Part shown: positions 2,188 to 60,189 of the stretch, piece by piece
Layout of the letters: each line of letters begins with the position of its first letter
How positions within the stretch are numbered: the stretch's first letter is position 1
Assembly: GCF_018402285.1 (NCBI RefSeq)
Contig: NZ_JAGYJH010000006.1
Location: 558,847-622,846 of the forward strand
Reading direction: 5' to 3'
Length of the DNA: 64,000 nucleotides
Origin: Hyphomonas sp.
Lineage (GTDB): Bacteria > Pseudomonadota > Alphaproteobacteria > Caulobacterales > Hyphomonadaceae
Notes under the pieces: generated by a model
What the model saw: only the letters and a program-made list of their open reading frames with translations
Told to the model about the DNA's origin: nothing
Database searches by the model: none
Translations under genes and position numbers: made by a program

Positions 2188-2193
2188 GGGCCG

Positions 2194-2292
2194 GTAAACT
2201 GGCTCATCCGGTCCCGGATTATCCCTGACCCGAACCAGGGACCTTCAGGCCGGTCTGGTATTTCGTCCCGGCCGGCCGGCCGTCCAGTTTAC
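2194..2292. repeat. Nested inverted repeat between yraN and the S8 protease gene
   Basis: Outer arms GTAAACTGG (2194-2202) and CCAGTTTAC (2284-2292) are perfect inverted copies about 80 bases apart. Inside them, GGTCCC (2210-2215) pairs with GGGACC (2236-2241). A further TCCCTG/CAGGGA pair lies within that. It could act as a transcriptional stop for yraN or be a remnant of a small inverted-repeat element; no T-run follows it. Confidence 0.4.
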
Positions 2293-2391
2293 AGGTGAAG
2301 GGGAGGTCAGTCTGTGATAGGGTCCCCTGGCTGCAAACAGGCAGGAAAGCGCCGGTGCAGCCCGTACATTCAGGATCGGTGGGAGGAAAAC

Positions 2392-36997: not shown

Positions 36998-37283
36998 GAG
37001 CCAACTCCTCCAAGGAGTGAATCACAACCCGCACAAACTGAGAATCTTTGATTCCGCGTGACTGCGCAACGGTCTAGTTGGCGTTGCGCCAGCAACACTT
37101 GGTTTCAGCTTGTGGCACGTCGAAAGGGCAGAATCACGCCAGCTCTGGCATTAATGGGTGATTTCAGGAGGTTGCTGCTGGCGATTGCGAAGCCGAGGCT
37201 GTAAAAAATGCAGGCGCGGAAAAGTTGCCAGATCGGAATTGTCTGGGGTAACGCCATAAGTTCGCTAAATGCGGGAGAGTTTC

Positions 37284-38357
37284 ATGGTGGATGGGACGCA
37301 GATCAGAACGCGGTTTGAAACACTCATCCGCAGAATCAAGGACAGCTTTGTGGATCTCAGGCCTGCCCAGCCAGCAATTGTTACCGGTGCGCCCACGGCG
37401 GAAACGCCGGAGAGCTGGTTGCCCTTTCTCCCGGACAATGTGTCCAAACCTGACCGCCCACTTCCAATTGTAGGCTTGAGGAGTCACGCTGCACATCCGG
37501 TGCTTTGCTCCAGACCTGAGATAAGTGTCGTGCTAGGATCTCTCAACCGCTTCGAATTGCTGAAACTCGCCATTGATTCTGTTCGCAGGGAACTTCGCAA
37601 ACTTGAGGGCGAAATCCTAGTTGTCGATGGCGGCTCGACGGACGGTTCGCTGGAATGGCTCGTTCAGCAGCACGATATCATCACCCTTATCCAGCATAAC
37701 CGCTATGAGGCCGATGGCGTGAAGCGGCGACGGCGGAGCTGGGGCGGTTTCATGAATATCGGATTCCGCGCTGCTGCAGCCCCCAATATTGCCATGATCT
37801 CGGATGACTGTCTTTTGATGCCAGGTAGCCTCAGAAATGCGCTCGAAAGGATGAAGGCAGCCCGCATTGCAGGCGTGCCGGTCGGCGCATGCGCCTTCTA
37901 CTTTCGAGACTGGCCGAATGATCAGCGCTACTTCGTGCAGAGGACCCTTGGCGGTAACCTCATGGTTAATCACGGTATATACACGCGCGAAGCTCTGGAA
38001 GCGGTCGGGTATGCCAATGAGGACGATTACGTCTTTTACAAAGCCGACACAGATCTGTCGTTGAAAATCTGGCAGAGTGGTTTCTGCATCATCGACTCTC
38101 CTGAGTCTGTTTGCGAGCACTATATTGGCGTCGGAGAAACCTTGCGGCAAAGTAATGTCGCTCTCATGGATTACGACCGGGCTCAGATGCGCGCCCTTTG
38201 GTCGGGCTTGGTCCACAAATCGTCAGTGGAAAAGATGGGCAAGATTTATCTTGATACCGAGCCGCTTTCTGAAGCAGACGATCTCTGGAGCGTAAGGTAT
38301 AAAGCCGAAAGCAACCTGTATGCGTCGGCCGCTCATTCTGCAGACAATAGTTGTTAA
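37284..38357 (+). CDS. Glycosyltransferase family 2
   Basis: A 357-residue GT-A enzyme. The ATG at 37284 has GGGAG seven bases upstream; an ATG five codons earlier is possible. After an about 85-residue N-terminal extension comes ISVVLGSLNRFELLKLAIDSV, VVDGGSTDGSLEWL and a DxD-like ISDDCLLMPGSL; the acceptor region contains DDYVFYKADTDLSLKIWQSG. It is cytoplasmic and probably adds a sugar to a lipid-linked glycan. It is followed 24 bases later by the FkbM/coiled-coil gene, so the two probably form a unit. Donor and acceptor are unknown. Confidence 0.88.
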   Translation: MVDGTQIRTRFETLIRRIKDSFVDLRPAQPAIVTGAPTAETPESWLPFLPDNVSKPDRPLPIVGLRSHAAHPVLCSRPEISVVLGSLNRFELLKLAIDSVRRELRKLEGEILVVDGGSTDGSLEWLVQQHDIITLIQHNRYEADGVKRRRRSWGGFMNIGFRAAAAPNIAMISDDCLLMPGSLRNALERMKAARIAGVPVGACAFYFRDWPNDQRYFVQRTLGGNLMVNHGIYTREALEAVGYANEDDYVFYKADTDLSLKIWQSGFCIIDSPESVCEHYIGVGETLRQSNVALMDYDRAQMRALWSGLVHKSSVEKMGKIYLDTEPLSEADDLWSVRYKAESNLYASAAHSADNSC

Positions 38358-38381: not shown

Positions 38382-41348
38382 ATGACCAAAGACACAAGTT
38401 TGCCCCGGAAGAAAAACGGGCGCTCCCCGAGCAAGAAGCATCATCAGCAGGGACGTGCTGGAGCCGGACGCGTAAAGATTGGATCTGCTCGCAGTGGTTT
38501 CGCGCGCGGTCAGCCGTTCGAAGACACTGTTCTGACAGGACTCTTCGCATTGCTGGATGATTTGAGCGGCCAGGAAGCGCGCATTGAAGTGAGCCGGATC
38601 GCGCGCGAGCGATTGCGCGCTGCCTTTCCGGCGCACTCGAACAATGTGGAGGTTGTGGCGCTCGCAAATGGATTGGACGTCGCGGTTGATACCGGCTGCT
38701 CGTTCGGCGCAGAGTTTTTTGTCGGCCACCTGAACGAATGGCGTTTTCTGAATGCGATCATCGCCCACATTCCAGTGGGCGCGAAGATTGTTGATGTCGG
38801 CGCAAATTTCGGCCTTTATGCGTTGCATTGCGCCAAGGCTGGAGGCGATAGCGCACGTGTGGTTGCATTGGAGCCGTTGCCGTCGGCGGCGGATCTTCTG
38901 GAGCGGAATGTTCGGGACAACAAATTTGCAGATCAGGTTTCTGTGCTGCGAGTTGCGGCCGGCGCAAAAAGTGGAACTGCGACGCTCTTCGTTGCAGCTG
39001 ACGGCGCGTTCAGCGGATTGCATGATACGCGCCGCTCTACCCTGAAAGAAAAGCTGGATGTACAGATCTGCGCTCTTGATCAGTGCGCGGAGGTTGCTGC
39101 GCTTGGTCCGGTCGACTTCCTGAAAATCGATGTTGAGGGGCATGAGGGCAGCGTGCTCGCCGGGGCGCATGAACTGATAGCGCGTTCCCCTGGTCTGCTG
39201 ATCTCGCTGGAGTACAGTCACAAGAACCTCACCGATAAAACTCGCGCTGAGATATTGGCTGAGATCGGTTACTGTATTGATGCAGGGTACTCAGCCCTGA
39301 TCGCGAGCGACCAGGGCAATTTCAACAATATCAGCGATACGCGCAAGATTCCGCGCAGTTTCGCCGGAACAGTTCTTCTGGCAGCACCGCAGTGCGCATG
39401 GAAGGATGACGTTCTTATGGCGCTCGACAATTCTGTATCGAAAAAGTCGCAAACGGGATTTCAGGAAGCAATTAGCTTTATCGTTCAACGCTCCAAAGCT
39501 GCACTGGAGACTGCGGAGGCGCAAAGGCAGCTGGCGGCCCGACTCGGGCTCGATCAGGCAAAAGATTGTAAATCTTTGGAGAAGTTTGTCAACACACTGA
39601 AGGCAGGTCATGACACCTTGGAGCGCCGGTATGCCGCGCTGATGGAATTGCAGGCCAACGAAACGGCACGGAACAAGGCGCTTGAGGCCGAACTGGCAGC
39701 GGGCCGCAAATTGCTTTCTGAAAAGCAGTCGGTGATTGACCGGATTCAGATAAGATCGGTCGCTCTTGAAGGTCAGCTTGAGGCCGTCCGTTCCAAGGCG
39801 GACCAGCGCGGTGATGCCCTGAAGTTGGCGAAGGAGCAGCGCGACGCGCTGCAGGCCACTCAAGCTTTGAGGGTGCGGAAAATTCAGGACGAGCGGGATG
39901 CGGCGGTAGAACGCCTGGAGGCAGTTTCGGCGACGCTGGACGCTCTCAGGGCGCAAGCCGAGCGGCAGAACGAGAAACTGGAACGGCGTGCGGCGGCATT
40001 GGAGACAGCTGCCGAACAGCAGATTCGACTGAAGTCCGCCAACTCTGAACTGTTGGAAAGGTTGGCGGCAGCCGAGGCTGTTCAGACGGCGGCAACGCAG
40101 AAGCTTAGGGAAGAGCGGGATGCGGCGGTAGAACGCCTGAAGGCAGTTTCGGCGACGCTGGACGCTCTCAGGGAGCAAGCCGAGCGGCAGAACGAGAAAC
40201 TGGAACGGCGTGCGGCGGCATTGGAGACAGCTGCCGAACAGCAGATTCGACTGAAGTCCGCCAACTCTGAACTGTTGGAAAGGTTGGCGGCAGCCGAGGC
40301 TGTTCAGACGGCGGCAACGCAGAAGCTTAGGGAAGAGCGGGATGCGGCGGTAGAACGCCTGAAGGCAGTTTCGGCGACGCTGGACGCTCTCAGGGAGCAA
40401 GCCGAGCGGCAGAACGAGAAACTGGAACGGCGTGCGGCGGCATTGGAGACAGCTGCCGAACAGCAGATTCGACTGAAGTCCGCCAACTCTGAACTGTTGG
40501 AAAGGTTGGCGGCAGCCGAGGCTGTTCAGACGGCGGCAACGCAGAAGCTTAGGGAAGAGCGGGATGCGGCGGTAGAACGCCTGAAGGCAGTTTCGGCGAC
40601 GCTGGACGCTCTCAGGGAGCAAGCCGAGCGGCAGAACGAGAAACTGGAACGGCGTGCGGCGGCATTGGAGACAGCTGCCGAACAGCAGATTCGACTGAAG
40701 TCCGCCAACTCTGAACTGTTGGAAAGGTTGGCGGCAGCCGAGGCTGTTCAGACGGCAGCAACGCAGAAGCTTAGGGAAGAGCGGGATGCGGCGGTAGAAC
40801 GCCTGAAGGCAGTTTCGGCGAGATCTGGACGCTCTCAGGAGCAAGCCGAGCGGCAGAACGAGAAACTGGAACGGCGTGCGGCGGCATTGGAGACAGCTGC
40901 AGAGGCGCAGGCCAAATTACAATCGGCCAACTCCGAATTGTCAGCAACACTATCAGCGGCTCGCGCCGAACTGGAGTCAGAAAGAAAGCAGCACTCGGAT
41001 CATATCAGAAAACTGGATATTGATCTTGATGGTGAAAGGAAGCGCGTTTCCGAAATCGAAGCGTCACTCTCTGTGGTCAGTGAAGAGAAGCGCGATCTTC
41101 AATCTAATATCGCACGCACCATTGATCTTCATAAACAGGAAGTATCAGTTCTGCGGGCTGTGATAGATGACGCAGAGCGCGCGGTGCTGGAAGCGAAACA
41201 GCGCGGGGACCAGCTTCATAAGCAACTTGCCGGTAAGATTGAAGATCTGAGCGCGCTGACGACGACGGTTGAAGCCCTGCGTACCGAATTCCGGCAGCTT
41301 CAGCAACGCGATGCCCTGCGCGCACTCAAGCGTTGGCGCCGCAGTTGA
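38382..41348 (+). CDS. FkbM family methyltransferase fused to a long repetitive coiled coil
   Basis: A 988-residue protein. After a basic, low-complexity start, residues about 80-330 form an FkbM SAM-dependent methyltransferase: IVDVGANFGLYALHCAK (SAM loop), VALEPLPSAADLLERN, then DFLKIDVEGHEGSVLAGA. From about residue 370 to the end the chain is almost wholly charged helix. Residues 504-841 hold four full and one partial copy of a 74-residue unit (AAVERLKAVSATLDALREQ ... LLERLAAAE). Seventy-four equals nine heptads plus one hendecad, so the coil can continue in register. The C-terminus is basic (ALRALKRWRRS). The layout is like WbdD, the O-antigen terminating methyltransferase whose coiled coil sets chain length. 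A kinase domain is not seen. Confidence 0.85.
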   Translation: MTKDTSLPRKKNGRSPSKKHHQQGRAGAGRVKIGSARSGFARGQPFEDTVLTGLFALLDDLSGQEARIEVSRIARERLRAAFPAHSNNVEVVALANGLDVAVDTGCSFGAEFFVGHLNEWRFLNAIIAHIPVGAKIVDVGANFGLYALHCAKAGGDSARVVALEPLPSAADLLERNVRDNKFADQVSVLRVAAGAKSGTATLFVAADGAFSGLHDTRRSTLKEKLDVQICALDQCAEVAALGPVDFLKIDVEGHEGSVLAGAHELIARSPGLLISLEYSHKNLTDKTRAEILAEIGYCIDAGYSALIASDQGNFNNISDTRKIPRSFAGTVLLAAPQCAWKDDVLMALDNSVSKKSQTGFQEAISFIVQRSKAALETAEAQRQLAARLGLDQAKDCKSLEKFVNTLKAGHDTLERRYAALMELQANETARNKALEAELAAGRKLLSEKQSVIDRIQIRSVALEGQLEAVRSKADQRGDALKLAKEQRDALQATQALRVRKIQDERDAAVERLEAVSATLDALRAQAERQNEKLERRAAALETAAEQQIRLKSANSELLERLAAAEAVQTAATQKLREERDAAVERLKAVSATLDALREQAERQNEKLERRAAALETAAEQQIRLKSANSELLERLAAAEAVQTAATQKLREERDAAVERLKAVSATLDALREQAERQNEKLERRAAALETAAEQQIRLKSANSELLERLAAAEAVQTAATQKLREERDAAVERLKAVSATLDALREQAERQNEKLERRAAALETAAEQQIRLKSANSELLERLAAAEAVQTAATQKLREERDAAVERLKAVSARSGRSQEQAERQNEKLERRAAALETAAEAQAKLQSANSELSATLSAARAELESERKQHSDHIRKLDIDLDGERKRVSEIEASLSVVSEEKRDLQSNIARTIDLHKQEVSVLRAVIDDAERAVLEAKQRGDQLHKQLAGKIEDLSALTTTVEALRTEFRQLQQRDALRALKRWRRS
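39891..40905 (+). repeat. 222-bp tandem repeat array inside the coiled-coil gene
   Basis: Unit starts lie at 39891, 40113, 40335, 40557 and 40779, exactly 222 bases apart. Copies two to four are almost identical at DNA level; copy one has a few changes (Glu for Lys, Ala for Glu) and copy five diverges after about 125 bases. In copy five an extra base near 40822 and a missing base near 40838 cancel out, changing six residues only. Such identity implies recent expansion or gene conversion, and the copy number may vary between strains. Confidence 0.95.
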
Positions 41349-41506: not shown

Positions 41507-42727
41507 TCACTTGCCTTCAGGGAGAATTACATTCAGGCGTTCAATTCTCTCTCGAAGCGCCGCAATCTTACTAGCCTGATTTTCAGAAAGAGTTCTGAAC
41601 GCATGGAGCGCTTCGTCAGATTGCGCCAGCCGGCTGGAAGCGTCTTCAACCTTGAACATCAGTGAACTGATGGTACCTTTTTCAAGGATGGCAGCTTGTT
41701 TCGCCTTCTCTAATGCGAGCTCGCAAGTGGTCAGTCGTGATATCAACGTTGCAGCGTCCTTCCTGAGCGCTGAGACCAATTCGGCTTTCTTCAGCGCAGC
41801 AGTTCGAAAGGACTCCACAACGTCTTTGAGTTTTGAGTTTTCCTCTCTGAGGTGATTTGCCTGAGCGGTGAATTGTTCAAGCTGTGAATTCAGACTGGCA
41901 ATGATATCTGATTGCTCCTGTATCCGCTGATTTTTCTTGTCGATAATCTCAAAAGCAATCTCTGGAGTAGAACCTTGGTCTTCAGGCCCAAGTGAGACGA
42001 CACTTTCGTCGAGAAATCCGTCACCCGGAAACGGATCCTCGGAGCATGGATTGACATAGGAGAACTGCTCAAGTCGCGCGTCGGGTGCGCCTGTAAAGTC
42101 CTTGCGTGCAATCATTTCCCGCGCGCGTTCGTAAAGCTCGAACTCCGGACTGAGCAGCTTTTCAATTTTTTGACGGTCAGCTTTAGTAACCTGTGTGTAT
42201 TGGATGTCTCGGTCACCGACATTCTGCCTTACTGCCGGTAGATGGATTTTTCCAAGAAGTTCAGACAAATATCCAAGAGTCCCCTGCATGTCGGCGGCGT
42301 CGCCGACGAATAGAAACGATTTCAAGACCTGATCAGCTTTGACATCCGGCCTGAATTGTAGCGAATGCCGATACATGAAGCGATTGTGCCTTATCAGAAA
42401 TTCTCTCAGTGAGCGGATATTCTTTGCCGGTACTTTCTCCTGGTGGTGATAGTAGGCTGATAGCAGGTGATCCAAGGGGTTCCTGAGGATCGTTATGACC
42501 CGAAAATTTGGATTCGATACGGCGCCGGAAAACGTATCCAGAAGGCTGCTTGGATGGCCAGTAAGCAGGGCACCAAAATGGCCGGTAACGCATGAATTGG
42601 AAAGGTCCAGTTCATCGAGGTTTGACTGCGATTCGCGTATCAGTGCACCGTACCAGGATTCAAGCGCACGTTTCAGACTGGTGCCGGCTGTTTTGGGAAT
42701 GTGATAGTGAATCAGTGCAGGTGGCAT
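41507..42727 (-). CDS. Sulfotransferase-family protein with C-terminal coiled coil
   Basis: A 406-residue protein from the ATG at 42725-42727, which has AGAGGA upstream; an alternative ATG at 42769 would overlap the neighbour. The 5'-phosphosulfate loop is HIPKTAGTSLKRAL and the 3'-phosphate site is TILRNPLDHLLSAYYHH, as in carbohydrate sulfotransferases. Residues about 265-400 form a heptad-rich coiled coil (SDIIASLNSQLEQF, NQASKIAALRERIERLN). PAPS would come from CysD/CysNC encoded at 22-25 kb. The gene converges with the FkbM/coiled-coil gene, and sharing a coiled coil suggests that the two proteins meet or compete at the same glycan-finishing site. Confidence 0.85.
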   Translation of the reverse strand: MPPALIHYHIPKTAGTSLKRALESWYGALIRESQSNLDELDLSNSCVTGHFGALLTGHPSSLLDTFSGAVSNPNFRVITILRNPLDHLLSAYYHHQEKVPAKNIRSLREFLIRHNRFMYRHSLQFRPDVKADQVLKSFLFVGDAADMQGTLGYLSELLGKIHLPAVRQNVGDRDIQYTQVTKADRQKIEKLLSPEFELYERAREMIARKDFTGAPDARLEQFSYVNPCSEDPFPGDGFLDESVVSLGPEDQGSTPEIAFEIIDKKNQRIQEQSDIIASLNSQLEQFTAQANHLREENSKLKDVVESFRTAALKKAELVSALRKDAATLISRLTTCELALEKAKQAAILEKGTISSLMFKVEDASSRLAQSDEALHAFRTLSENQASKIAALRERIERLNVILPEGK

Positions 42728-42741
42728 TCGCTGGCGGTCCT

Positions 42742-43425
42742 CTACGCAGAGTAAGATGATCTCTTCCATGTGGGATGATCATCCCGGATAAATAGCATAT
42801 GCATTTGCCAGAGCGCCAGATCTCCTGGGCGGAACAGCGGATCGCACATATCCACACAGCGAAAGCCGAGCGTCTTCATATGAAGGGACATTTCGTCGAA
42901 GGTGAGATTCCTTCCGCCCACAAAGTTGAGCTTGAAATTGTAAACCTCCATCATGATGAGACTGGTATTTTTCAGTGTCTCCACCGCGCCAGCGAGAATA
43001 TCGATTTCAACGCCGTGGGTGTCGAATTTCAGGAAATATGGAGGCCGAAGATTGAATTCCGCGACGAGCGTATCGATCCGGCGAAGAGGTGTCTCCGTCA
43101 CGCTATTACCGGCTGCGACGGGAGCCGACAAAAGCGCGCCGCCTACGTCATTCGATTTCAGGAACTGACCCGTGCCGTCTATTGAAGAGGCGCCACATAC
43201 AACATAATCAGTACCCGGATGTTTATTGGCGATTGATTTCCAGCCGTCGAGGAAACGCGGATCCATATCTATAAGCAGGCTTTTCATGCCGGGCCAATGG
43301 CGCAGAAAAAAACTCAAGTCGTCGCCTCGTCCTGCGCCGATATTCACAAAGCTGGAAACCGCTATGTTCTTGTAGCCAATGCGCCGGATCGCGCCGTCCA
43401 GGCTTGAGTCTCGTTCAAGGCGCAT
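42742..43425 (-). CDS. FkbM family methyltransferase
   Basis: A 227-residue SAM-dependent methyltransferase. Visible parts are SFVNIGAGRGDDLSFFLRHWPGM (SAM-binding loop, variant GAGRGDD), LLIDMDPRFLDGWK, ETPLRRIDTLVAEF and PYFLKFDTHGVEIDILAGA, the FkbM post-II motif. It would methylate a sugar hydroxyl of the surface glycan. It lies 14 bases upstream of the sulfotransferase gene on the same strand, so the two modifying enzymes are probably co-expressed. Confidence 0.87.
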   Translation of the reverse strand: MRLERDSSLDGAIRRIGYKNIAVSSFVNIGAGRGDDLSFFLRHWPGMKSLLIDMDPRFLDGWKSIANKHPGTDYVVCGASSIDGTGQFLKSNDVGGALLSAPVAAGNSVTETPLRRIDTLVAEFNLRPPYFLKFDTHGVEIDILAGAVETLKNTSLIMMEVYNFKLNFVGGRNLTFDEMSLHMKTLGFRCVDMCDPLFRPGDLALWQMHMLFIRDDHPTWKRSSYSA

Positions 43426-45514: not shown

Positions 45515-46279
45515 TTAACGCTTAGAGTACGGGGGCATGTTGACAGTTGGAAGCGTTGCTTCTCCCCCATCAACCATTGCCTCGAGCATGCGCCAGTCGT
45601 GCTGAGAATTGACGTCCAGCCCTTCGTCAGTGTACGTTAGAAACGGCGTCAACACTTCTCCGGAAATTGTGCCGCCTTCGAGTGCCACACGGCTCCACGC
45701 GATCTCGAGACTGGCATTCTGGACATATACTTTCGGCAAGGCCGCATACTGGCTCGAGTGATAGGGCGTAGCGTCCTCATGGGTCATGGGCATCAACGGA
45801 TGCATGCGGTCACCGCGAACGATCCACATCTTGCCAGGGTGCTGCGCACAGAGCTCAACCGCACGCAGACTGTCGACACCAGTCTGCTGGATGAATTGGC
45901 TCCAGGCGCGACGAATCGTTTCCGGTTTGCGGCAGGGACTTGTAGGGCGTAGTAGAGCAAAGCACTCGAACACTTCTTCCTGTGGATTTCTCAGGTGGTT
46001 CAGAGCGTGGAGAATCCATTCGATGTCGGGTGACTTGTCGCCGGAGATTTCAGCCGGCCGCAGGAAAGGGACCTCTGCGCCATAGTACCTAGCAATCGCA
46101 GCATACTCTTCAGAATCAGTAGACACCACAACGCGGGAGAACACGCCGGAATCGAGAGCCGCGCAGATGGTGTAGGCGATCAGGGGGTGGCCAGCGAGCG
46201 GCGCAATATTCTTATGCGCGACGCGCTTGGAGCCTGCGCGTGCGGGAATGAGGGCTATGCATTCGGGAGTTGCGCTCAT
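45515..46279 (-). CDS. Acylneuraminate cytidylyltransferase family protein (CMP-sugar synthetase)
   Basis: A 254-residue enzyme from the ATG at 46277-46279; the frame extends upstream but inside the ALDH gene. It has the activating motif LIPARAGSKRVAHKNIAPLAGHPLIAYTI, then STDSEEYAAIA, LLRPTSPCR and the metal-binding DEGLDVNSQHDW. It couples CTP to a 2-ulosonic acid to give the CMP donor. With the NeuB-type synthase and KdsC-like phosphatase it makes a complete activation branch. The gene starts four bases after the ALDH stop. The sugar could be neuraminic, legionaminic, KDN or another acid. Confidence 0.9.
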   Translation of the reverse strand: MSATPECIALIPARAGSKRVAHKNIAPLAGHPLIAYTICAALDSGVFSRVVVSTDSEEYAAIARYYGAEVPFLRPAEISGDKSPDIEWILHALNHLRNPQEEVFECFALLRPTSPCRKPETIRRAWSQFIQQTGVDSLRAVELCAQHPGKMWIVRGDRMHPLMPMTHEDATPYHSSQYAALPKVYVQNASLEIAWSRVALEGGTISGEVLTPFLTYTDEGLDVNSQHDWRMLEAMVDGGEATLPTVNMPPYSKR

Positions 46280-46283
46280 GGCG

Positions 46284-47750
46284 TCAGAGGCGCTCCGGCT
46301 CAGTAATGAGATAGATGTCTTTGAGCTCTGTGTAGATATCCAGCGCTTCCGTGCCGGGTTCGCGGGTCCCGTTGCCAGAATTGCGAAGTCCGCCAAACGG
46401 CATGTGTGGCTCCGACCCGAACGTGCCAGCATTGACTACGGCAATCCCGGCGCTCAGACGCTGAGTAAAGGTCCATGCCCTGTCCCAGCTCCGTGTGTGG
46501 ATAGCGCCCGTAAGGCCGTAGGGCGAGTTGTTCGCGAGATTGATTGCTTCTTCGAAGCTCCCGACACGGAAGATGATGCCGATAGGACCGAACAGCTCTG
46601 TCTGAGCCATGTGCGAATGGGGTGGCAGGTTAGTCACGAGAGTAGGGTTCAGATAGAATCCGTTGCCGAGTCCAGCGGTTTCAGCCCGTTGCCCCCCGCA
46701 CAGCACTTCCGCGCCTTCCGCCTTGGCGCGTTCCAGAGCGGCTAGCATCGCAGAAAGCTGGCGCAGGTTGATGACCGGACCGAGGTCGCAGTCATCTTCC
46801 ACGCCAAGCCGGAGCGACTTCGCCTTGGCGACAAAACGGTTGACGAAATCATCATAGACATTGTCCATGACTATGAAGCGGCTGCCGGACGCACAGCGCT
46901 GCCCCGCGTTGGAGAAAGCCGAAAGCGATGCCCAGTGCACAGCTTTGTCGATATCAGCATCGTCGCACACAATGAAGGCGTTCTTGCCGCCAAGTTCTAG
47001 CGATACTTTTTTCAGTTCCCGCCCAGCTTGTTCGGCAATCAGACGTCCGACCCGTGTCGAGCCCGTGAACGAGATTACATCCACGCCGGGATGGCTGGCA
47101 AGGACCGGCCCGACTTCCGAGCCAAGGCCATGAACTACGTTCAGCACTCCCGGCGGAATGCCAGCTCCAATCAGTATACGGGCCATCCAGTCTGCCGAAA
47201 CAGGCGTTTCCTCGGCGGGCTTGAGGACAACCGAATTGCCGCAGACCAGCGCGGGAAATACTTTCCAGGCGAAGTTCGGCGCAGGCGTGTTGGCAGCGGT
47301 GATCAGGGCAGCGACGCCGCACGGCTGGCGGACAGTCATCGCGGACTTCTCCGGGGTGCCTGAAGGCATAGTGCGGCCAAACATACGCTGACCTTCGCCG
47401 GCGAAGAAACGGCCACAGAGAATGGCGCCGGCTGTTTCCCCACGAGCGTCCTTTAGAGACTTGCCTGCCTCGCATGCCACGATCCTGGACAACTCTTCCG
47501 CTCGTGCCTCGATCAGGTTGCAGGCTTTATGCAATATGGCGCCGCGTTGTACTGCAGGGACCGCCGCCCACGATGCTTGCGCCTCGCGGGCCGCCGACAC
47601 TGCAGCCGACGCAGTGCTCGCATCGGCCAGGTGCAGCCTTCCAACCTCAGCGCTATCATGAGGGCTCAGGATCGGCTGTGTCGACCCAGATGTCAGAGCT
47701 TCGCCGTTCACTAAGGACCGGACGTTTTGCGGGTCGAAAGACGTCAGCAT
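46284..47750 (-). CDS. Aldehyde dehydrogenase family protein
   Basis: A 488-residue NAD(P)-dependent oxidoreductase of the ALDH superfamily. It shows NTPAPNFAWKVFPALVCGN, KPAEETPVSADWM, FTGSTRVGRLIAEQAG, the general base Glu in LELGGKN and the catalytic Cys in FSNAGQRCASGSR, ending with ELFGPIGIIFRVGSFEEAI and MPFGGLRNSGNG. Its place inside a sugar-acid operon, directly before the CMP-transferase gene, suggests it oxidises a sugar aldehyde or semialdehyde, or makes an acyl precursor for sugar N-acylation. The substrate cannot be read from the sequence. Confidence 0.9.
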   Translation of the reverse strand: MLTSFDPQNVRSLVNGEALTSGSTQPILSPHDSAEVGRLHLADASTASAAVSAAREAQASWAAVPAVQRGAILHKACNLIEARAEELSRIVACEAGKSLKDARGETAGAILCGRFFAGEGQRMFGRTMPSGTPEKSAMTVRQPCGVAALITAANTPAPNFAWKVFPALVCGNSVVLKPAEETPVSADWMARILIGAGIPPGVLNVVHGLGSEVGPVLASHPGVDVISFTGSTRVGRLIAEQAGRELKKVSLELGGKNAFIVCDDADIDKAVHWASLSAFSNAGQRCASGSRFIVMDNVYDDFVNRFVAKAKSLRLGVEDDCDLGPVINLRQLSAMLAALERAKAEGAEVLCGGQRAETAGLGNGFYLNPTLVTNLPPHSHMAQTELFGPIGIIFRVGSFEEAINLANNSPYGLTGAIHTRSWDRAWTFTQRLSAGIAVVNAGTFGSEPHMPFGGLRNSGNGTREPGTEALDIYTELKDIYLITEPERL

Positions 47751-49425: not shown

Positions 49426-49944
49426 CTAGCCGCCTTTGGCGGCGGCGATGGCGTCGCAGACCTCACGCACGGCACCTTGGCCGCCGGGTTTCAGAGTTCT
49501 GAACGCAGTCAGCGTGTCAAGATCTTCGTGAGCGTCCGCCACGATGACTGGTAGATGCACCTTGCCCAGAACACCCAGGTCGTTGATGTCGTTTCCGATG
49601 AAGGCCGCGTCCTGAAAGCCAAACCCGTGCTCCGAAAGCAGGGCTTCGAGGGCAGCTACTTTGTCTTCTACACCCTGATGGCAGGCGATCTTCAGTTTTC
49701 GTGCACGCGCCGAGACGACAGGGTTTTCCTCGGTCGAGATAATCACGCAGTGCACGCCGGCTGCCATTGCGCGGCGGAGGCCATACCCCTCCAACCGGGA
49801 ACACCGCACAACTTCAGTGCCATCTTCCGACACATAAACGTAGTTGTCCGTCATTACGCCGTCAAAATCTATCGCCAACAGACGCACCTTGCGGGCGCGT
49901 TCTGCAAACTCTGGATGGGTCAGTGCACGAGAGCTTGATTGCAT
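49426..49944 (-). CDS. KdsC-like HAD phosphatase
   Basis: A 172-residue C0-type HAD phosphatase. Motif I is AIDFDGVMTDN (Asp nucleophile and second Asp), motif II is VIISTEE, motif III is the Lys in GVEDKVAALEALL, and motif IV is FIGNDINDLGVL. Relatives remove phosphate from Kdo-8-P or KDN-9-P. Here it would act on the ulosonic acid phosphate made by the NeuB-type synthase. The start overlaps the previous stop by one base (TGATG), so it is coupled to the glycosyltransferase gene upstream. Confidence 0.88.
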   Translation of the reverse strand: MQSSSRALTHPEFAERARKVRLLAIDFDGVMTDNYVYVSEDGTEVVRCSRLEGYGLRRAMAAGVHCVIISTEENPVVSARARKLKIACHQGVEDKVAALEALLSEHGFGFQDAAFIGNDINDLGVLGKVHLPVIVADAHEDLDTLTAFRTLKPGGQGAVREVCDAIAAAKGG

Positions 49945-51605
49945 CAATGTTTATACTCGAATGGTGTTCCTGTGAGGATTCCCGAACAGATGGTGTCGAT
50001 ACCTGGATCGGCCCCAGGGTGCGCAGCGGCGAACGCCCCGGACGCGAGCGTTGTAAGCGGCCATCCTGCGTTGGGGTCAAGAGCCGAAACCGGGATACAG
50101 CGCCGGAAAAAGAAATGATAAGCGTAACGACGAGCACGATCTTGCTCGGATGCAGAAAGCCGCACCATCATTTCGGCGTTTTCCAAAAAGCAAAGGTAGC
50201 TGTCTCGATCCGTTGCATCATGACTGAATCCTTTGCCGCGGATCCATGCATCGCCGGCAACGATAACAGGAAGGCCGCGTGCGGCGATTTCAACTCCGAG
50301 TTTGGTGTTGTAGATTAGCAGCGCCCGGCAGATCTTTGCCAAGCCATAGGTGTTATCAGTCATTTCGGGTGTAATCACACGGATGTTGGGCGGCATCTGT
50401 GGCCACCTTTGCTGGATCGCATCGTCCAGGCGCTGCTGCGCGCGCGGGCTGTTCATTATTTCGCCTGGATGGCAGCGAATGATCAGCTGCCGTTCTGGGT
50501 GCCGGCTGAACCAGTCAACTGTGTCATGTGTCCACGCAATCATGTCGCCATAGGCCGAACCCGGATAGTGCAAACGAGCGTCCCAGGCGACATTGGCGGC
50601 GAGAAGGAAGGTGGACTTTGATGGGTCAAGCTTCAGCTTGTCCCAGACTTTGCGTTCAGGTTGAGGTGCTTGCCGCTGAAACCGTATCCAGTCTGTCGCG
50701 CCGGTTTCTCGCTCTGTCAGGTACCGTTCCAGTGCATTGTCTTCTGCCTCGGTAAGGGGACGGGGGCCCCATCGCGATTCTGGTTCAGCAATCATTTCCC
50801 GATGATAAGTATCGCGATGCTGGTAGATAAGTGTGCTGCGTCGATAGGCCGGGTGCCAGGTTACAAGGCGCTTGCCAGCGGCTCTGGCCGCGCGGGCGAT
50901 CTGGCCTTGCGGCACATATATACCGTGATGAGCAACAACAACGTCATAACCACGTTCCTCAAACAGGCGCTGAGCAGCCCTGTCTACCAGGAATGCTGCT
51001 TGCCGGTAGCGGTTCAGTATTTGGATTTCGGCATCAGAGTTGCCGAGTGTTGACTTTCCAAAGAAGCGAAGGGCCCCAGCCAGCGCATGCTCATCTAGTT
51101 CAGAATTGTGGTGATCTGAGGCGAACGCGTCGGAGTCAAGCATATCATCCGCGCAAAGATAATCACCGAAGCTTCGGACAGGGAGGCCGAGCGGGGTGTA
51201 CACGCGGTTACCAGCGTCCGTGCAGATTGCGCAGAAATCCGCCTGGGGTCCGCGCTGTGCTGCGCGCCGGACGCTGGGGACGAGCGTATGTTCAATCAGC
51301 TGGCAGGCTGGCAGTCTGCCGTCACAAAGCAATATCTCGACCCGCGCGCCGCGAAGGGTCAGCGCTACAGCGATGAGGCTATCGATAGTGTTGATAGTCG
51401 AATGCATACCGAGACTGGAAGCGATACACACCTTAGGCCCGCGTGCGGAGTATACCGACGCCATCCATTCCGCCGCATTGCCTTCGATCAAGGTTGCCCA
51501 GTCCGGCAGGTAGCCTGGCTGCCGGACTGTTTGACTTAAACGCCACCTTCGGAGCGGCGCATAAAGATCCGATTTGCGGATAGTGCTCCGAAGATTGTCT
51601 TTCAA
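49944..51605 (-). CDS. Surface carbohydrate biosynthesis protein, GT-B-like (paralogue of 61166-62842)
   Basis: A 553-residue protein begun at TTG 51605, just six bases after the NeuB-type gene. It has two Rossmann-like lobes: VCIASSLGMHSTINTIDSLIAVALTLRGARVEILLCDG in the first and LIIRCHPGE, LLIYNTKLGVEIAARGLPVIVAGDAWIRGKGF in the second, close to the capsule-type (KpsS/KpsC-like) transferase style. A conserved YAYHFFFRR motif is near the end. It is about as long as, and clearly related to, the plus-strand gene at 61166. It may transfer the CMP-activated sugar. I infer a transferase role; no activity is known to me for this exact group. Confidence 0.8.
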   Translation of the reverse strand: MKDNLRSTIRKSDLYAPLRRWRLSQTVRQPGYLPDWATLIEGNAAEWMASVYSARGPKVCIASSLGMHSTINTIDSLIAVALTLRGARVEILLCDGRLPACQLIEHTLVPSVRRAAQRGPQADFCAICTDAGNRVYTPLGLPVRSFGDYLCADDMLDSDAFASDHHNSELDEHALAGALRFFGKSTLGNSDAEIQILNRYRQAAFLVDRAAQRLFEERGYDVVVAHHGIYVPQGQIARAARAAGKRLVTWHPAYRRSTLIYQHRDTYHREMIAEPESRWGPRPLTEAEDNALERYLTERETGATDWIRFQRQAPQPERKVWDKLKLDPSKSTFLLAANVAWDARLHYPGSAYGDMIAWTHDTVDWFSRHPERQLIIRCHPGEIMNSPRAQQRLDDAIQQRWPQMPPNIRVITPEMTDNTYGLAKICRALLIYNTKLGVEIAARGLPVIVAGDAWIRGKGFSHDATDRDSYLCFLENAEMMVRLSASEQDRARRYAYHFFFRRCIPVSALDPNAGWPLTTLASGAFAAAHPGADPGIDTICSGILTGTPFEYKH

Positions 51606-51611
51606 GTGATA

Positions 51612-52703
51612 TCAGGCCTCGCTCAAAGCTCTCACGGCAGCTTCTTCCGTGGTGCCGAGGTGCTCGAAGGTGATGTTCTCGTCTTCCCGCACCGATGACT
51701 TAAGCTTCATGCCAACCATGACGTCCTGGAAATAGGGTGCAACACCGTCGCCTGGAGACTTGATCGCGATGTCAGCCAGAGTCAAAATGTGGCCGGCTGA
51801 CAGATCACGCGAGGCAACGATCTTCTTGCCCATCTTTATTAGCGGCGCGATCTCCGACGGGTAGGTTCGCTTGATGCCATCCCCGAGCGCAATCCGGGCA
51901 CGCTGCAGGTCCCGAATTAGCCGGCGCAGACCGTTGGGTTCCAGCGAGAAGGCTTGGTCTGTGCCTTTCCAGGCGCGGTTGAGCGTAAAGTGCTTCTCCA
52001 GCACCCGCGCCCCGCACATATAGCCGAGAAGAGCCATAGCGATGCCGCTGTCATGAGACGAGAAACCGATAGGAATATCCGGAAATTCACGGCGATAAGT
52101 TTCCACGACCCGGATGTTCAACTCCTCGAAGGTCGGCGGATAGCCTGAGGTGCACTGCATGATACACAGCTGCGGATTGATCGGCGCAATAGTGTCGTAC
52201 ATGCGCCGCACATCTTCAAGCGATGCGCCGCCCGTCGACACGAACAGAGGCTTTCCGAAGGAAGCTACATATTTGATCAACGGAAGGGTCTTCAGATCTC
52301 CCGATGCGATCTTGTACATCGGCATGTCGAGATCTTCGAGGAAGTCTGCGCTCTTGTAGTCCCAAGCGGTAGAGAAAAGCGTGATGCCGATCTTCTTCGA
52401 GTGATTCCGCAGTTCGATCCACTCGTCGCGGTCGAACTCAAGGAATTCACGATGCTCGCCATATGTGGGGGCGTATGCATTTTCCGAGTTGTACGGAGTA
52501 TTGTAGTACTCTTTGGTGTAAAGGGACCGATTGTCCCGTTTCTGCAGTTTGACAGCTTGGGCGCCGCAGAGTTTTGCAGAGTCAAAAAGCGCTTTGCACT
52601 TTTCCACATCACCTTCGTGATTCTGGCCGATCTCGGCGATCACGTACATATCTTCATTGTCACCAATTTTAACACTATCGACAATAAGCTGACGATCCGA
52701 CAT
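51612..52703 (-). CDS. N-acetylneuraminate synthase family protein (NeuB-like)
   Basis: A 363-residue enzyme from the ATG at 52701-52703 after AAGGAG. The TIM-barrel condensing domain has YVIAEIGQNHEGDVEKCKALF, AVKLQKRDN, STAWDYKSADFLED, KIASGDL, VSTGGASLEDVRRM, QCTSGYPP, GFSSHDSG and LEKHFTLNRAWKGTDQAFSL. A C-terminal SAF (antifreeze-like) domain contains DLSAGHILTLADIAIKSPG. It condenses a sugar aldehyde with phosphoenolpyruvate into a 2-ulosonic acid. No UDP-GlcNAc 2-epimerase (NeuC) is nearby, so the precursor is unlikely to be plain N-acetylmannosamine from that route. It is the first gene of the unit that runs down to the transketolase. Confidence 0.93.
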   Translation of the reverse strand: MSDRQLIVDSVKIGDNEDMYVIAEIGQNHEGDVEKCKALFDSAKLCGAQAVKLQKRDNRSLYTKEYYNTPYNSENAYAPTYGEHREFLEFDRDEWIELRNHSKKIGITLFSTAWDYKSADFLEDLDMPMYKIASGDLKTLPLIKYVASFGKPLFVSTGGASLEDVRRMYDTIAPINPQLCIMQCTSGYPPTFEELNIRVVETYRREFPDIPIGFSSHDSGIAMALLGYMCGARVLEKHFTLNRAWKGTDQAFSLEPNGLRRLIRDLQRARIALGDGIKRTYPSEIAPLIKMGKKIVASRDLSAGHILTLADIAIKSPGDGVAPYFQDVMVGMKLKSSVREDENITFEHLGTTEEAAVRALSEA

Positions 52704-52797
52704 CGAAAGTCTCCTTAACACTGCGTTCTTCGTTGCATCGGCGACACCGCTTCTGCTCCTTGTCGAGTAAACAGTTTCAATGAGGGGTTCAACTCAT

Positions 52798-53722: not shown

Positions 53723-54658
53723 TCAGATCAGTTGAACAGGCGGCCGCTTCCCGCGGTACCTCTGTCTTAAGTGGTAGGGCTTGCCAAAACTGAAAAGCGG
53801 GTCGGCGAGACTGATATGTTTGGCCATCACAGTATTGTAGTAGTCTCGCGGCAGGTTGCCGAACACGGGTTTTTCGGAGTTGACATTCAGATCAAGTTTG
53901 CTGGCGAACCGGCCACGAGCCCATTCCCAGATTTGTTTCTTCTTCGACCATAGCCAGGAACTCTGGCTGTACGGTTGGTATGTCTCTTCATAAAGCTTGC
54001 GAAAGCGATCATGCTTCTCCTGCAGCGTCTTGTATTCTGGGCTTTCCTTGTCCTCCGACCAGTTGCGGAAGTGATGGATAGCTACATCGCGAGTGTATAC
54101 GACATCAAAGCCGAGGAAGAGGACTTTTGCTGTAAGATCGGGGTCGATGCCGTAATCTCGGAAATCCTCGCTAAAGCCGCCGAGCGCATGCAGAACCTCC
54201 GTAGGCAGAACGCCTTGATTGACATTTAGAATCCCAATACTCGAAACGCCACCTATATAAGGCGCCTTCACGAACGGTCCAATCATATCGCGGACCTTCA
54301 GCCCGACCATGCCGATACGCCTTTCCCGTTTCAGAATTTCCACAGCCTTGTCGAGCCCTTGATCGACGATCTCGTTATCGTCGCTGACCCAGCACACATA
54401 GGGCGTTTTGACACGCATAAAGACATCATTGTAGGCGCGTGCCTGTCCAAGTCGCTTGCCAACAAAAACGGGATGAATCCGGTCGCTGGTTACGGATCGA
54501 AGGTATTCGACCGTTCCATCCGTTGATCCGGCGTCGGTTATGTAAAGATGGTAGGGAATTCTGGTTTCGCGGATCACCGAGTTGACGAGGCGTTCTAATT
54601 GGTCGCGCCGATTGTAGGTTCCGCAAACGATCGATAAACTATTAGCCTCGTTTGTCAT
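53723..54658 (-). CDS. Glycosyltransferase family 2
   Basis: A 311-residue GT-A enzyme: SIVCGTYNRRDQLERLVNSV, ITDAGSTDGTVEYL and a DxD-like CWVSDDNEIVDQGLD. The acceptor half contains GILNVNQGVLPTEVLHALGGFSEDF and DYGIDPDLTAKVLFLGFDVVY. The C-terminus is basic. It is cytoplasmic and lies in the operon with the ABC exporter. Its organisation parallels the GT2 gene at 37284. Donor and linkage are unknown. Confidence 0.9.
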   Translation of the reverse strand: MTNEANSLSIVCGTYNRRDQLERLVNSVIRETRIPYHLYITDAGSTDGTVEYLRSVTSDRIHPVFVGKRLGQARAYNDVFMRVKTPYVCWVSDDNEIVDQGLDKAVEILKRERRIGMVGLKVRDMIGPFVKAPYIGGVSSIGILNVNQGVLPTEVLHALGGFSEDFRDYGIDPDLTAKVLFLGFDVVYTRDVAIHHFRNWSEDKESPEYKTLQEKHDRFRKLYEETYQPYSQSSWLWSKKKQIWEWARGRFASKLDLNVNSEKPVFGNLPRDYYNTVMAKHISLADPLFSFGKPYHLRQRYRGKRPPVQLI

Positions 54659-55648: not shown

Positions 55649-56339
55649 GCCGGGGCTCCTCCGTCTCAGCCCGTTGGAATCCTTTTATGTCGAGTTCGCG
55701 CCTCGCTGCCAGCCAGATATGCCGGCGTGGAAACCGGTCCGGCAACTCGCGGAAGTCATCATGTGCCACCGGCCGTGTGCACCGATAGACATGGCTGAAG
55801 CCAGCGGCCCACAGCCCCTGGTCTATTGCCTTCGGGCTCAGCAATAGCGCTAGAGGAAGTATCCCCTGCGTTGCGTTCGGGTTTTCGCGTATGACCCGAG
55901 CCAGCGGCAGGTTTGATGGAAAAGTCATGGTCTCGAGCAGGAGAGCGTGCTTCGTCAGCGCGCCCATCATGCGCAGCGCCCTTAGTGGATTTTCGAGGTG
56001 GTAGAGAATACCAAGGCCGAGCGAGAAATCCCGCGGCGGAGGCAGAGTGTCCATGCCCCAGGCGTCGAAGTCGAACACTTCGAATCTGGCTCCCGGTACG
56101 CGCCGGCGGCCTTCTGCGGCTACGGCCTCCCGGCCCTCCAGCGCGACGACATCCAACCCGCTGCGCAGCAGCTTTTCGGCAAACCAGCCAGGGCCGGCGC
56201 CAAGATCATAGGCGGTTTCCATCGCCAGTCCTGCGCCGCGCAGAGAGGCGATTACATCTTCTGCCAGCGCCCATCGGGCCGCGTTTATTTCAAGGTAATT
56301 GGGCGCATCAAACAAGGCGATGCCGTTAGTCTCAGTCAT
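55626..56339 (-). CDS. Class I SAM-dependent methyltransferase (DUF1698/CmoB-like)
   Basis: A 237-residue methyltransferase with AYDLGAGPGWFAEKLLRSGLDVVALEGREA (motif I and acidic end of beta-2), FDAWGMDTLPPPRDFSLGLGILYHLENPLRAL (motif II to III) and a helical C-terminal part. Overall this is similar to the group that modifies glycans or tRNA (the ILYHLENP motif is shared with CmoB-like proteins). Context favours a sugar methylation role. It overlaps the Wzt gene by eight bases and the epimerase gene by 23. Confidence 0.82.
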   Translation of the reverse strand: MTETNGIALFDAPNYLEINAARWALAEDVIASLRGAGLAMETAYDLGAGPGWFAEKLLRSGLDVVALEGREAVAAEGRRRVPGARFEVFDFDAWGMDTLPPPRDFSLGLGILYHLENPLRALRMMGALTKHALLLETMTFPSNLPLARVIRENPNATQGILPLALLLSPKAIDQGLWAAGFSHVYRCTRPVAHDDFRELPDRFPRRHIWLAARRELDIKGFQRAETEEPRRENYWQR

Positions 56340-57663
56340 CAGCGCGCTCTGTTGTCCAATCCAGGCGAGGTCGCAGCCCGCCCGGGAAAGAACGTGCGTA
56401 ACGTCCGCGCGCTACCTTGGTCGTGTCGCCGATCACTTCGTACACAGAGAAGGCGATAGCCTTCTCGACCATCTGATGGCGCACGAGCGGATCTGCGGTA
56501 ACAAGACCAATGGTGACGTAGTGCACCCCCTCGTTAAGCAGATTGGCGGGAAGCTCCGTAATCGTCCGGAAACGTCCGGTTTCATTGAAGGCATCGGGCA
56601 TGCTTGGATCGGTATAGGCGACAACGAACATCATCTCGCCCTTGTCATTTCTGAAGTGTATTGCAGGCTCTATCCGCAATCCCGGCTTCAATACGTCGAA
56701 TAAAATTTCGATGCGCGCCTTCTGATCGATTTTTAGCGACCGTGCCGGCTGATGGGTCTCGTCCATCACCTTGGCCGATACGATAGCGGCCACATCCCCG
56801 TTTGCCATCTCATCAAAAAGCGCTGCCTTCTGGGTCTTGGATGCTTCTACATTGCGCGAGATAGCGGATTGAATCGGTGCCTGAAAGGTGGCCGCAATGT
56901 TCATGGTGCTACCCTCATAGGCATCGCACACATCGCGCACATTACCGTCCATCACGACTTCGCCCTTGCTCAACCAGATTGCGCGATCACAAAACCTGCG
57001 CACAGCACCGATGGAATGCGAGACGAAAATCAGAGTGCGGTGGTTCCCAGTCAGTTCATCCATCCGGCCAAGGCATTTCTGCTGGAAGGCGGCGTCACCT
57101 ACAGACAGGACCTCGTCCAGCATGAGAATCTCCGGGTCAATATGCGCGGCCACCGAAAATCCGAGCCGGGAGCGCATGCCTGTCGAATAGGTCCGAACCG
57201 GCTCATCGATGAACTGTCCGATTTCAGAAAAATCAATGATCGCCTGGATCTTGTCATCCATTTCTGCGCGGCTCATGCCATGCAGCGCGGCATTCATGTA
57301 GATGTTCTGGCGCCCGGTGAGACTGGGTTGGAAGCCCGTTCCTACCTCAAGCAGGGAGGAAGATCGCCCGTACAGAAACGCTTCTCCGGCAGTCGGGTTG
57401 ATGACCCGCGAGAGAATTTTCAGCAGCGTGGATTTGCCGGCGCCATTGTGACCGATGATGCCGAGGCGTTCGCCGGCCTCGAGTTTGAAGGATACGTCCT
57501 TCAGCGCCCAGAAATCGCGCTGGCCAGTCTTTTTTGCGTCTGTAGAAGTAAGCTGGTAGCGTTTCGACAGATTCCGCACATCGACCATAATCTGCTGAGC
57601 CGTGTCAGGCTGCGCCGATTCGCGCGCTGACTGCCCGGGCATTGTGCGTAGAGTTAAGTTCAT
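56332..57663 (-). CDS. Polysaccharide ABC transporter ATP-binding protein with C-terminal domain (Wzt-like)
   Basis: A 443-residue protein from the ATG at 57661-57663; the frame extends upstream only into the permease gene. The ATPase has Walker A IIGHNGAGKST, the signature YSTGMRSRLGFSV, Walker B ILMLDEVLSVGD and the H-loop FVSHS, typical of O-antigen/capsule exporters. Residues about 300-443 form a beta-rich extension (ARIEILFDVLKPGL, AIHFRNDKGEMMF, ITELPANLLNEG), which is the place of the carbohydrate-binding domain in Wzt proteins that recognise a finished chain end. It is coupled to the permease by a TGATG overlap. Confidence 0.92.
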   Translation of the reverse strand: MNLTLRTMPGQSARESAQPDTAQQIMVDVRNLSKRYQLTSTDAKKTGQRDFWALKDVSFKLEAGERLGIIGHNGAGKSTLLKILSRVINPTAGEAFLYGRSSSLLEVGTGFQPSLTGRQNIYMNAALHGMSRAEMDDKIQAIIDFSEIGQFIDEPVRTYSTGMRSRLGFSVAAHIDPEILMLDEVLSVGDAAFQQKCLGRMDELTGNHRTLIFVSHSIGAVRRFCDRAIWLSKGEVVMDGNVRDVCDAYEGSTMNIAATFQAPIQSAISRNVEASKTQKAALFDEMANGDVAAIVSAKVMDETHQPARSLKIDQKARIEILFDVLKPGLRIEPAIHFRNDKGEMMFVVAYTDPSMPDAFNETGRFRTITELPANLLNEGVHYVTIGLVTADPLVRHQMVEKAIAFSVYEVIGDTTKVARGRYARSFPGGLRPRLDWTTERADD

Positions 57664-58499
57664 CAGATTTTCTCTGCACTGTTGCGTGCTGCCTTCGACA
57701 GCACGATCAGACCTGCTAACGAAAGGGCAACTGATATGCCCGCTGCCACTAGCCACGCGAAAAAGTCGATTAGTTCCGGTTCGAACATGGCACCGCGCAC
57801 AGCAGACAGTATGCCGACCATTGGGTTAACAAGATAGTATTCCTGAACAGTTGTGGGGAGAATTTCTTTAGAAAACAATACAGGAGACAGGAATAGACCG
57901 AGATAAAGAATGGTTTCGAGAATCTTCCGGTAATCGGGATGGTAGATCATTAGCCCGGCGAAGAGGACACCAAGGCCAAAGGCTAGCAGCAGCAAAGTGA
58001 CCATTGCTGGTGCAAGATATACAATGTGAAGGCTGAATGGCACGCCCATCGCAAATTGCACGATAGCCACAGCCGCCGAAATGACTGCTAGATCGATCCA
58101 TCGGGAGAGGACCATGGCGATCGGGCTGAGAACTTTCGGGAAGTACACTTTCTGGCTGAGCGCCGAGTCTGTTGCTACTGAGCCGGCGACCTGAACAGCC
58201 GTGTCCTGAAACAGGAACCAAAGACAAAGTCCTGTAAAAATGTGAAGTCCGTAGGGAACGGATGTCCCAAAATCGGCGCCTGAGACATTCCGCAGGAACA
58301 AGAACGCCAAAGTCATGATGCCCGGTCGGATAAAGCCCCACACCAAGCTCATCGGCGAACTCGCGACCCGCGTCTGGAAATTTCGCGAAATCATCTGTCT
58401 GAGCAGGCGCCGGAACTTCCAGATCTCCAGTGGGTTCAGTACGCCCGCGCCGCGTTCAGGGCGGATGTGGACAGCAGGTGGGGCTGGCTTCTGGCTCAT
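57663..58499 (-). CDS. Polysaccharide ABC-2 type transporter permease (Wzm-like)
   Basis: A 278-residue inner-membrane protein with six hydrophobic helices. The N-terminal cytoplasmic part has FRRLLRQMISRNFQTRVASSPMSLVWGFIRPG and the loop SALSQKVYFPKVLSPIAMVLSR, characteristic of ABC-2 polysaccharide permeases. The C-terminal half has GLGVLFAGLMIYHPDYRKILETILYLGLFLSPV. With the downstream ATPase it exports a lipid-linked glycan. The gene shares four bases (ATGA) with the GT4 gene before it and one with the ATPase gene after it. Confidence 0.93.
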   Translation of the reverse strand: MSQKPAPPAVHIRPERGAGVLNPLEIWKFRRLLRQMISRNFQTRVASSPMSLVWGFIRPGIMTLAFLFLRNVSGADFGTSVPYGLHIFTGLCLWFLFQDTAVQVAGSVATDSALSQKVYFPKVLSPIAMVLSRWIDLAVISAAVAIVQFAMGVPFSLHIVYLAPAMVTLLLLAFGLGVLFAGLMIYHPDYRKILETILYLGLFLSPVLFSKEILPTTVQEYYLVNPMVGILSAVRGAMFEPELIDFFAWLVAAGISVALSLAGLIVLSKAARNSAEKI

Positions 58500-60022: not shown

Positions 60023-60189
60023 TCTTTTTCTCCGATGACCCAACGCTGGCTTCGGGCGGTGTCACCGTTACGACCTTGATGATATTGCCTTCGCTTTTCC
60101 TTGCATCTAAACAAACGTCTGGATAGTCACAACGTAAGGATTTAACCGGCCCGCGAAGTTAACGTCAGGTTTGGTTATGGAGGCAAAGT

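Follow-up and report, generated by a model that had tools for sequence, protein, structure and literature searches.

The FkbM methyltransferase-coil protein

The window analysed here is a 64,000-nucleotide stretch of contig NZ_JAGYJH010000006.1 from Hyphomonas sp. (assembly GCF_018402285.1; 3.04 Mb in 6 contigs, completeness around 91%). Its main subject is a gene encoding a 988-aa protein, in which an FkbM methyltransferase domain precedes a very long C-terminal tail predicted to form a coiled coil. The gene lies in a glycan locus that also includes a Wzm/Wzt exporter pair (Table 1). An earlier note on this DNA, made without database searches, had read the protein as a possible repeat-tunable molecular ruler; both the order of a methyltransferase domain followed by a long helical tail and the presence of Wzm/Wzt in the same locus are borne out.

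Judged by its sequence, the protein belongs to the curated FkbM family, as it exceeds the cut-offs of both Pfam PF05050 (E 2.8e-16, 60.5 bits against 22.7) and NCBIfam TIGR01444 (E 3.9e-28, 98.7 bits against 37.7). The Pfam scan detected no kinase domain in it, and the six PDB matches found with phmmer at E ≤ 0.1 include no WbdD chain.

Beyond residue 336 the protein is devoid of proline. In a custom heptad model the tail scores 238 (60 shuffles: 137 ± 9, highest value 158), and exactly one +4 break is placed in each full 74-residue unit of the array described below, which equals nine heptads plus one hendecad, as the earlier note had reckoned. When modelled from the single sequence with AlphaFold2 (AF2), residues 356–987 are mostly helical, with gaps at 388–395, 470–478, 618–630, 812–820 and 876–884. 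The coil anticipated from structure modelling was thus recovered as helix, at low confidence (predicted local distance difference test, pLDDT, of about 50–70), and the model backs the helix only. Fourier periodicity was set against shuffles for single units and was not significant for the 74-residue unit (285 of 5000 shuffles equally high), nor for two 35-mers and one 39-mer (1106, 981 and 1986 of 5000 shuffles); taken as a whole, the tail has its maximum at 102 degrees. The coil claim rests on the register model and not on Fourier periodicity. Given a rise of about 1 nm per heptad, as stated in PMC5082667, each repeat would span around 10.6 nm, in agreement with the approximately 11 nm per copy proposed earlier, and a straight spacer of 639 residues would reach about 90 nm.

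A recent 222-bp tandem array

The four full units and one partial unit reported in the earlier note were recovered by Tandem Repeats Finder. The full units begin at 39887, 40109, 40331 and 40553 and the partial fifth at 40775. Pairwise, the full units differ at 0–4 of 222 bases. There is no difference between units 2 and 3, and from these unit 4 departs at one base and unit 1 at three. At the sequence level, the array shows the near-identical in-frame repeats characteristic of phase-variable (contingency) loci. Because its units are nearly identical while identity in the N-terminal parts of the orthologues is 31–43%, the 74-residue unit appears to have been expanded in phase very recently, or else homogenised.

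In the fifth unit, the compensated indel patch changes ATLDALRE to ARSGRSQE, keeps the frame and places a glycine in the coil; the AF2 helix gap at 812–820 falls at this site. The patch is either real or a consensus error. On the opposite strand, an open reading frame (ORF) of 517 aa (39291–40844, minus strand) runs across most of the repeats and is probably a side effect of the unit having no stop codons.

The repeat count could in principle be an assembly artefact, with the array collapsed or expanded, since two units match base for base and typical short reads fall short of the roughly 1 kb of the array; the suspicious indel pair and the incomplete, six-contig genome speak for it as well. 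We consider this very improbable, as the frame is open through the array and similar in-phase arrays occur in complete plasmid records (see below).

No second strain of the source species was found. None of the 41 other genomes of the genus that were searched carries an orthologue, and only two FkbM-domain matches among them reach E 1e-12. The contig scan with the 988-aa protein gave no further copy, and the scan with the GT2a alignment returned a single contig, that of genome G260. With the 988-aa protein as query, tblastn against plasmids matched 61 records, all below 60% identity; in the 20 records listed of these, coverage is confined to residues 107–325. As for the literature, no paper among the matches listed addresses tandem-repeat variation of a glycan ruler in its title or abstract opening, subscription literature being mostly outside the reach of the search.

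Orthologues with a fixed enzyme and a variable coil

With a two-row profile, 25 of the 299 genomes searched in the order matched at E 1e-18 or better; they split into nine at 7.2e-51 or better and a remainder at 5.7e-22 or weaker. The nine carriers are the window's genome, six of the 29 genomes of genus g285, G672 and G467; the tenth carrier, G260, comes from another order. In all ten orthologues the N-terminal part has 46 invariant columns and the enzyme domain can be aligned throughout. In turn, the tail behind the methyltransferase ranges about five-fold in length, from 654 residues in the window protein through 452 (G501, G438), 439 (G439, G537), 407 (G690), 306 (G506), 271 (G672) and 226 (G467) to 127 in G260. 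Counted as spacers, lengths of 285, 388, 420 and 431 residues occur among the related species. These relatives speak for the ruler idea in so far as coil length varies, but not for the claim on the repeat unit: the 74-residue array itself was found in none of the nine orthologues. Weak 75-bp repeats of 1.9 copies were observed in G537 and G438, and the G506 tail gave only one repeat row (21 bp, 2.0 copies).

Among the five closely related g285 species (74–86% identical), the only gaps in the coil are one of 11 residues (one hendecad) and one of 32 (three heptads plus a hendecad), and both keep the coil phase. Their methyltransferase domain has no gaps; several occur in the N-terminal extension, and the final residues show a difference of two. 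In these alignments coil length varies, the enzyme being fixed and, in one clade, the C-terminus as well. The C-terminal motif QQREAL[HY]EIGLGKHLR[RQ]R is conserved in all but one of the six g285 species, with recognisable variants in G506 and the window protein; this basic C-terminus is possibly a dock to the membrane or the polymerase.

The five-fold range of tail lengths would also suit a scaffold or tether, in which the coil would serve to oligomerise the enzyme and recruit it to a complex of glycosyltransferases, methylation would be internal or on side chains, and coil length would drift near-neutrally. It is consistent with this that a second coil protein, the sulfotransferase-like one, is conserved nearby, as in roseobacter plasmid loci with several coil proteins. 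Yet, the coil of this neighbour is near-constant while that of the FkbM protein changes (the sulfotransferase measures 359 aa in four of the five close g285 species, 379 aa in the other), and both coil gaps in these species are in phase. Together with the linkage to Wzt considered below, this leaves the scaffold, in our judgement, a less probable though still sizeable alternative.

The surrounding locus

We found that the gene context of the subfamily is largely retained. A GT2a homologue adjoins the FkbM gene in seven of the nine other loci. Wzt, NeuB, GT2a, GT2b, an epimerase and an SDR gene are present in all eight loci of the order; Wzm was found in five; in the remaining three, the stretch stops within Wzt. 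FkbM2 and the 553-aa capsule-like protein are further common to the six g285 loci, in five of which the stretch includes the sulfotransferase. In G260, homologues of GT2a, GT2b, FkbM, Wzm, Wzt and the capsule-like protein are distributed over two contigs.

Table 1. Positions of the methyltransferase-coil gene, its parts and its neighbours in the window.
Feature	Positions	Strand	Basis or remark
FkbM methyltransferase with long C-terminal coiled coil (proposed terminator/ruler)	38382–41348	+	988 aa, ATG start
FkbM methyltransferase domain, residues 138–289	38793–39248	+	PF05050, TIGR01444
Predicted coiled coil, residues 358–986	39453–41339	+	heptad/hendecad model, custom coil scorer, AF2 helix at low pLDDT
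222-bp (74-aa) tandem array, 4.6 copies	39887–40900	+	Tandem Repeats Finder, 98% matches
Compensated +1/−1 indel patch, partial fifth unit	40822–40837	+	unit comparison
Basic C-terminus QQRDALRALKRWRRS (putative dock)	41301–41345	+	likeness to QQ-x-x-[AS]L...GLGKHL of six orthologues
GT2 glycosyltransferase GT2a, upstream neighbour	37269–38357	+	PF00535
Sulfotransferase-like protein, 420 aa, own C-terminal coil (270–418)	41507–42769	-	Pfam, coil scorer
Second FkbM methyltransferase (FkbM2), without long coil	42742–43425	-	Pfam, coil scan
Cytidylyltransferase, PseF-like (under that model's cut-off)	45515–46432	-	Pfam/NCBIfam
553-aa protein without Pfam match, related to the 580-aa Capsule_synth-like protein	49944–51605	-	sequence comparison
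NeuB-type synthase	51612–52721	-	PF03102, E 6.7e-72
GT2 glycosyltransferase GT2b	53723–54658	-	Pfam
Wzt ATPase with C-terminal Wzt_C-like domain (about 56335–56862)	56332–57756	-	ABC_tran; Wzt_C
Wzm permease	57663–58499	-	PF01061
GT1 glycosyltransferase	58496–60043	-	Pfam
Capsule_synth-like protein, 580 aa	61100–62842	+	PF05159, E 8.6e-6

Other enzymes of the locus might be the true terminator, either a Capsule_synth-like protein adding nonulosonic acid or the sulfotransferase, with the FkbM-coil protein as an accessory. NeuB and a PseF-like cytidylyltransferase are encoded here, NeuB being 78–80% identical across the six g285 loci, and Kdo-type caps are described for Klebsiella O4 and O12 (PMC11231755). 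Yet, no other coil encoded in the locus comes near that of the FkbM protein in length, and the coil of the sulfotransferase is short; we hold this explanation to be quite unlikely. Elsewhere in the genome two proteins of the Wzy_C family are encoded (G000:C3:560167–560619 and G000:C2:84973–85431), which by family membership could be candidates for an O-antigen ligase or polymerase.

Linkage to the Wzt C-terminal domain

In Escherichia coli O9a, the C-terminal domain of Wzt reads the chain ends. When the last 176 residues of the window's Wzt were used as a query against the 299 genomes of the order, 10 matched at 1e-5 or better, and the nine strongest (E 4.5e-14 or better) are exactly the nine carriers of the FkbM subfamily. 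The tenth, G012 (E 1.5e-8), does not have this subfamily. As these genes lie together in a cluster and six of the genomes belong to a single genus, the pattern reflects co-inheritance rather than separate gains. In G260, the Wzt C-domain (43–44%) is located on another contig with Wzm and the capsule-like protein. This tight linkage is a further point against a mere scaffold.

Two side observations concern the same domain. In locus L060 (G439, about 1690–2817, minus strand), an ORF of 422 aa combines a sulfotransferase-like with a Wzt_C-like domain; from its sequence it is possibly a reader of glycan ends joined to a modifying enzyme. Weak Wzt_C-like matches also occur in G690, G501 and G506.

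FkbM-like coil proteins on plasmids

GT2a led to a Leisingera plasmid carrying an FkbM-like coil protein with a 105-bp array. The orthologues of Leisingera strains M527 and NJS204, at 92.7% identity, are set apart by a single gap of exactly 35 residues (105 bp); thus, unit copy number differs between two strains. This protein is taken as an analogue of the window's, not as an orthologue. The plasmid group comprises eight proteins (Leisingera, Salipiger, Thalassovita, Gemmobacter, Ensifer), six of which have in-phase arrays with units of 35, 35, 35, 39, 42 and 35 residues, while no array of period 60 bp or more was found in the other two. The in-phase arrays of the Rhodobacterales loci L035, L036, L037, L038, L041 and L043 have periods of 105, 117 or 126 bp. 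Beside the FkbM-like coil protein of Salipiger abyssi, another coil protein (L044, 4347–5969) has a 201-bp array of 2.2 copies, whose 67-residue unit is coil-compatible.

The group is labelled FkbM-like on the basis of PF05050 matches in two of the four members scanned (best E 8.9e-5) and inspection by eye; a profile comparison of the two methyltransferase groups gave a weak result (probability 4.7%, E 0.0086). Similar to the window protein, its members combine an FkbM-like N-terminus with a C-terminal coil and, in six of the eight, in-phase tandem arrays, and seven of the eight are encoded in annotated polysaccharide loci or on plasmids having such genes. They differ in a distant N-terminal domain and in unit length.

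We compiled the coil segment lengths from both groups post hoc. The 11 values, some of them related (74, 35, 39, 42, 35, 67, 25, 11, 32, 32 and 7 residues), are all 0 or 4 modulo 7, with a naive probability of 1e-6. The list omits repeats with periods below 60 bp or below 45 bp, those gaps of the NJS204/caerulea pair (at 65% identity) that measure 6, 3, 1 and 50 residues and lie towards the C-terminus, every gap between G506 and its relatives, and the 1- and 5-residue gaps of the G672/G467 pair near the tail ends. The statistic is suggestive of coil-compatible segments; selection for any intact coil would produce an equal outcome. As coil gaps are phase-compatible and coil lengths vary, evolution appears to lengthen or shorten the spacer by coil-compatible segments.

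Comparison with known terminators and proposed role

WbdD carries its methyltransferase(-kinase) at the tip of a coil, which keeps it some 20 nm away from the polymerase; changes in the coil alter the modal chain length, and capping is required for export (PMC5082667, PMC3482155). The window protein shares with WbdD of E. coli O9a and O8 an N-terminal methyltransferase, a C-terminal coil and a locus with an ABC exporter, so that computationally it presents the layout of WbdD-type terminators, namely an N-terminal methyltransferase followed by a long C-terminal coil. It differs in having an FkbM-family enzyme, a recent tandem DNA array and a predicted coil of about 630 residues, in contrast to about 250 for the C-terminal domain of WbdD (residues 460–708). 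Unlike O9a WbdD, it has no kinase, in which it agrees with WbdD of O8, described as kinase-less too (PMC3482155). Capping is known for WbdD and proposed here. Of the likeness to WbdD drawn in the earlier note, the layout stands; as phmmer gave no WbdD chain in the PDB at E ≤ 0.1 and Pfam no kinase, the protein would best be called WbdD-like in layout and not a WbdD.

Ruler logic has also been described for the terminators of Klebsiella O4, O7 and O12, and O7 orthologues are reported from alphaproteobacteria (PMC11231755). O7 ORF6 and O4 ORF7 are, like the window protein, modular terminators with a coil in ABC-exporter clusters. Unlike it, the O7 protein additionally carries a kinase-like domain and is fused to glycosyltransferases, and that of O4 is a Kdo transferase; the term FkbM does not occur in the main text of that paper (PMC11231755). 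The E. coli O101/O162 protein also combines an N-terminal methyltransferase with a C-terminal coil and is a proposed ruler. Its disruption in O101 removed one part of the glycan, the PS2 repeat units, which favours a scaffold; no tandem array is mentioned in the portion of the paper available (PMC13168486).

We propose that the window protein is an FkbM-type, kinase-less, WbdD-like chain terminator with a coil as spacer, which we regard as its most likely role, at about an even chance of being correct. The C-terminus would sit at the membrane or the polymerase, and the coil would hold the methyltransferase at a set distance. A growing chain that reaches the enzyme would be methylated at its non-reducing end and stop growing; the C-terminal domain of Wzt would then recognise the capped end for export by Wzm/Wzt, as the WbdD/Wzt precedent suggests. 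In evolution, the spacer would be lengthened or shortened by coil-compatible segments.

Several observations weigh against this role. G260 keeps the linked genes with only around 54 residues of coil in its tail, and a long coil is therefore not essential. The C-terminal motif is missing from the orthologues of G672, G467 and G260. A straight spacer of about 640 residues (around 90 nm) would far exceed the approximately 20 nm of WbdD. AF2 modelled the ruler at low confidence, and the enzyme domain was not folded. As for Wzt, its Wzt_C match (E 5.5e-5, 23.6 bits) lies under the Pfam cut-off of 30.4, its last 176 residues gave only chance-level chains against PDB (best E 0.17), and its single-sequence AF2 model is unusable (pLDDT 33). 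Furthermore, G138, G252 and G360, of the same class, have weaker matches to the Wzt C-domain, and in these genomes we found no FkbM match at 1e-12 and, within the 20 kb surrounding each Wzt match, no coil of at least 90 residues.

An extension of the terminator proposal holds that recombination between the 222-bp units shifts the coil in steps of about 10.6 nm, so that glycan length becomes a heritable and reversible strain trait, and that this is a general route for terminators. We consider it unlikely.

Support for the ruler model of surface glycans comes from few studied systems, chiefly from engineered changes to the coil of E. coli O9a. Orthologues with the same neighbours and the same enzyme domain, whose tails range from 127 to 654 residues and which include close species differing by 11 or 32 residues, constitute a natural series in which coil length could be tested against chain length. 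If the proposal is true, gain and loss of repeats may be how bacteria change the length of their glycan chains.

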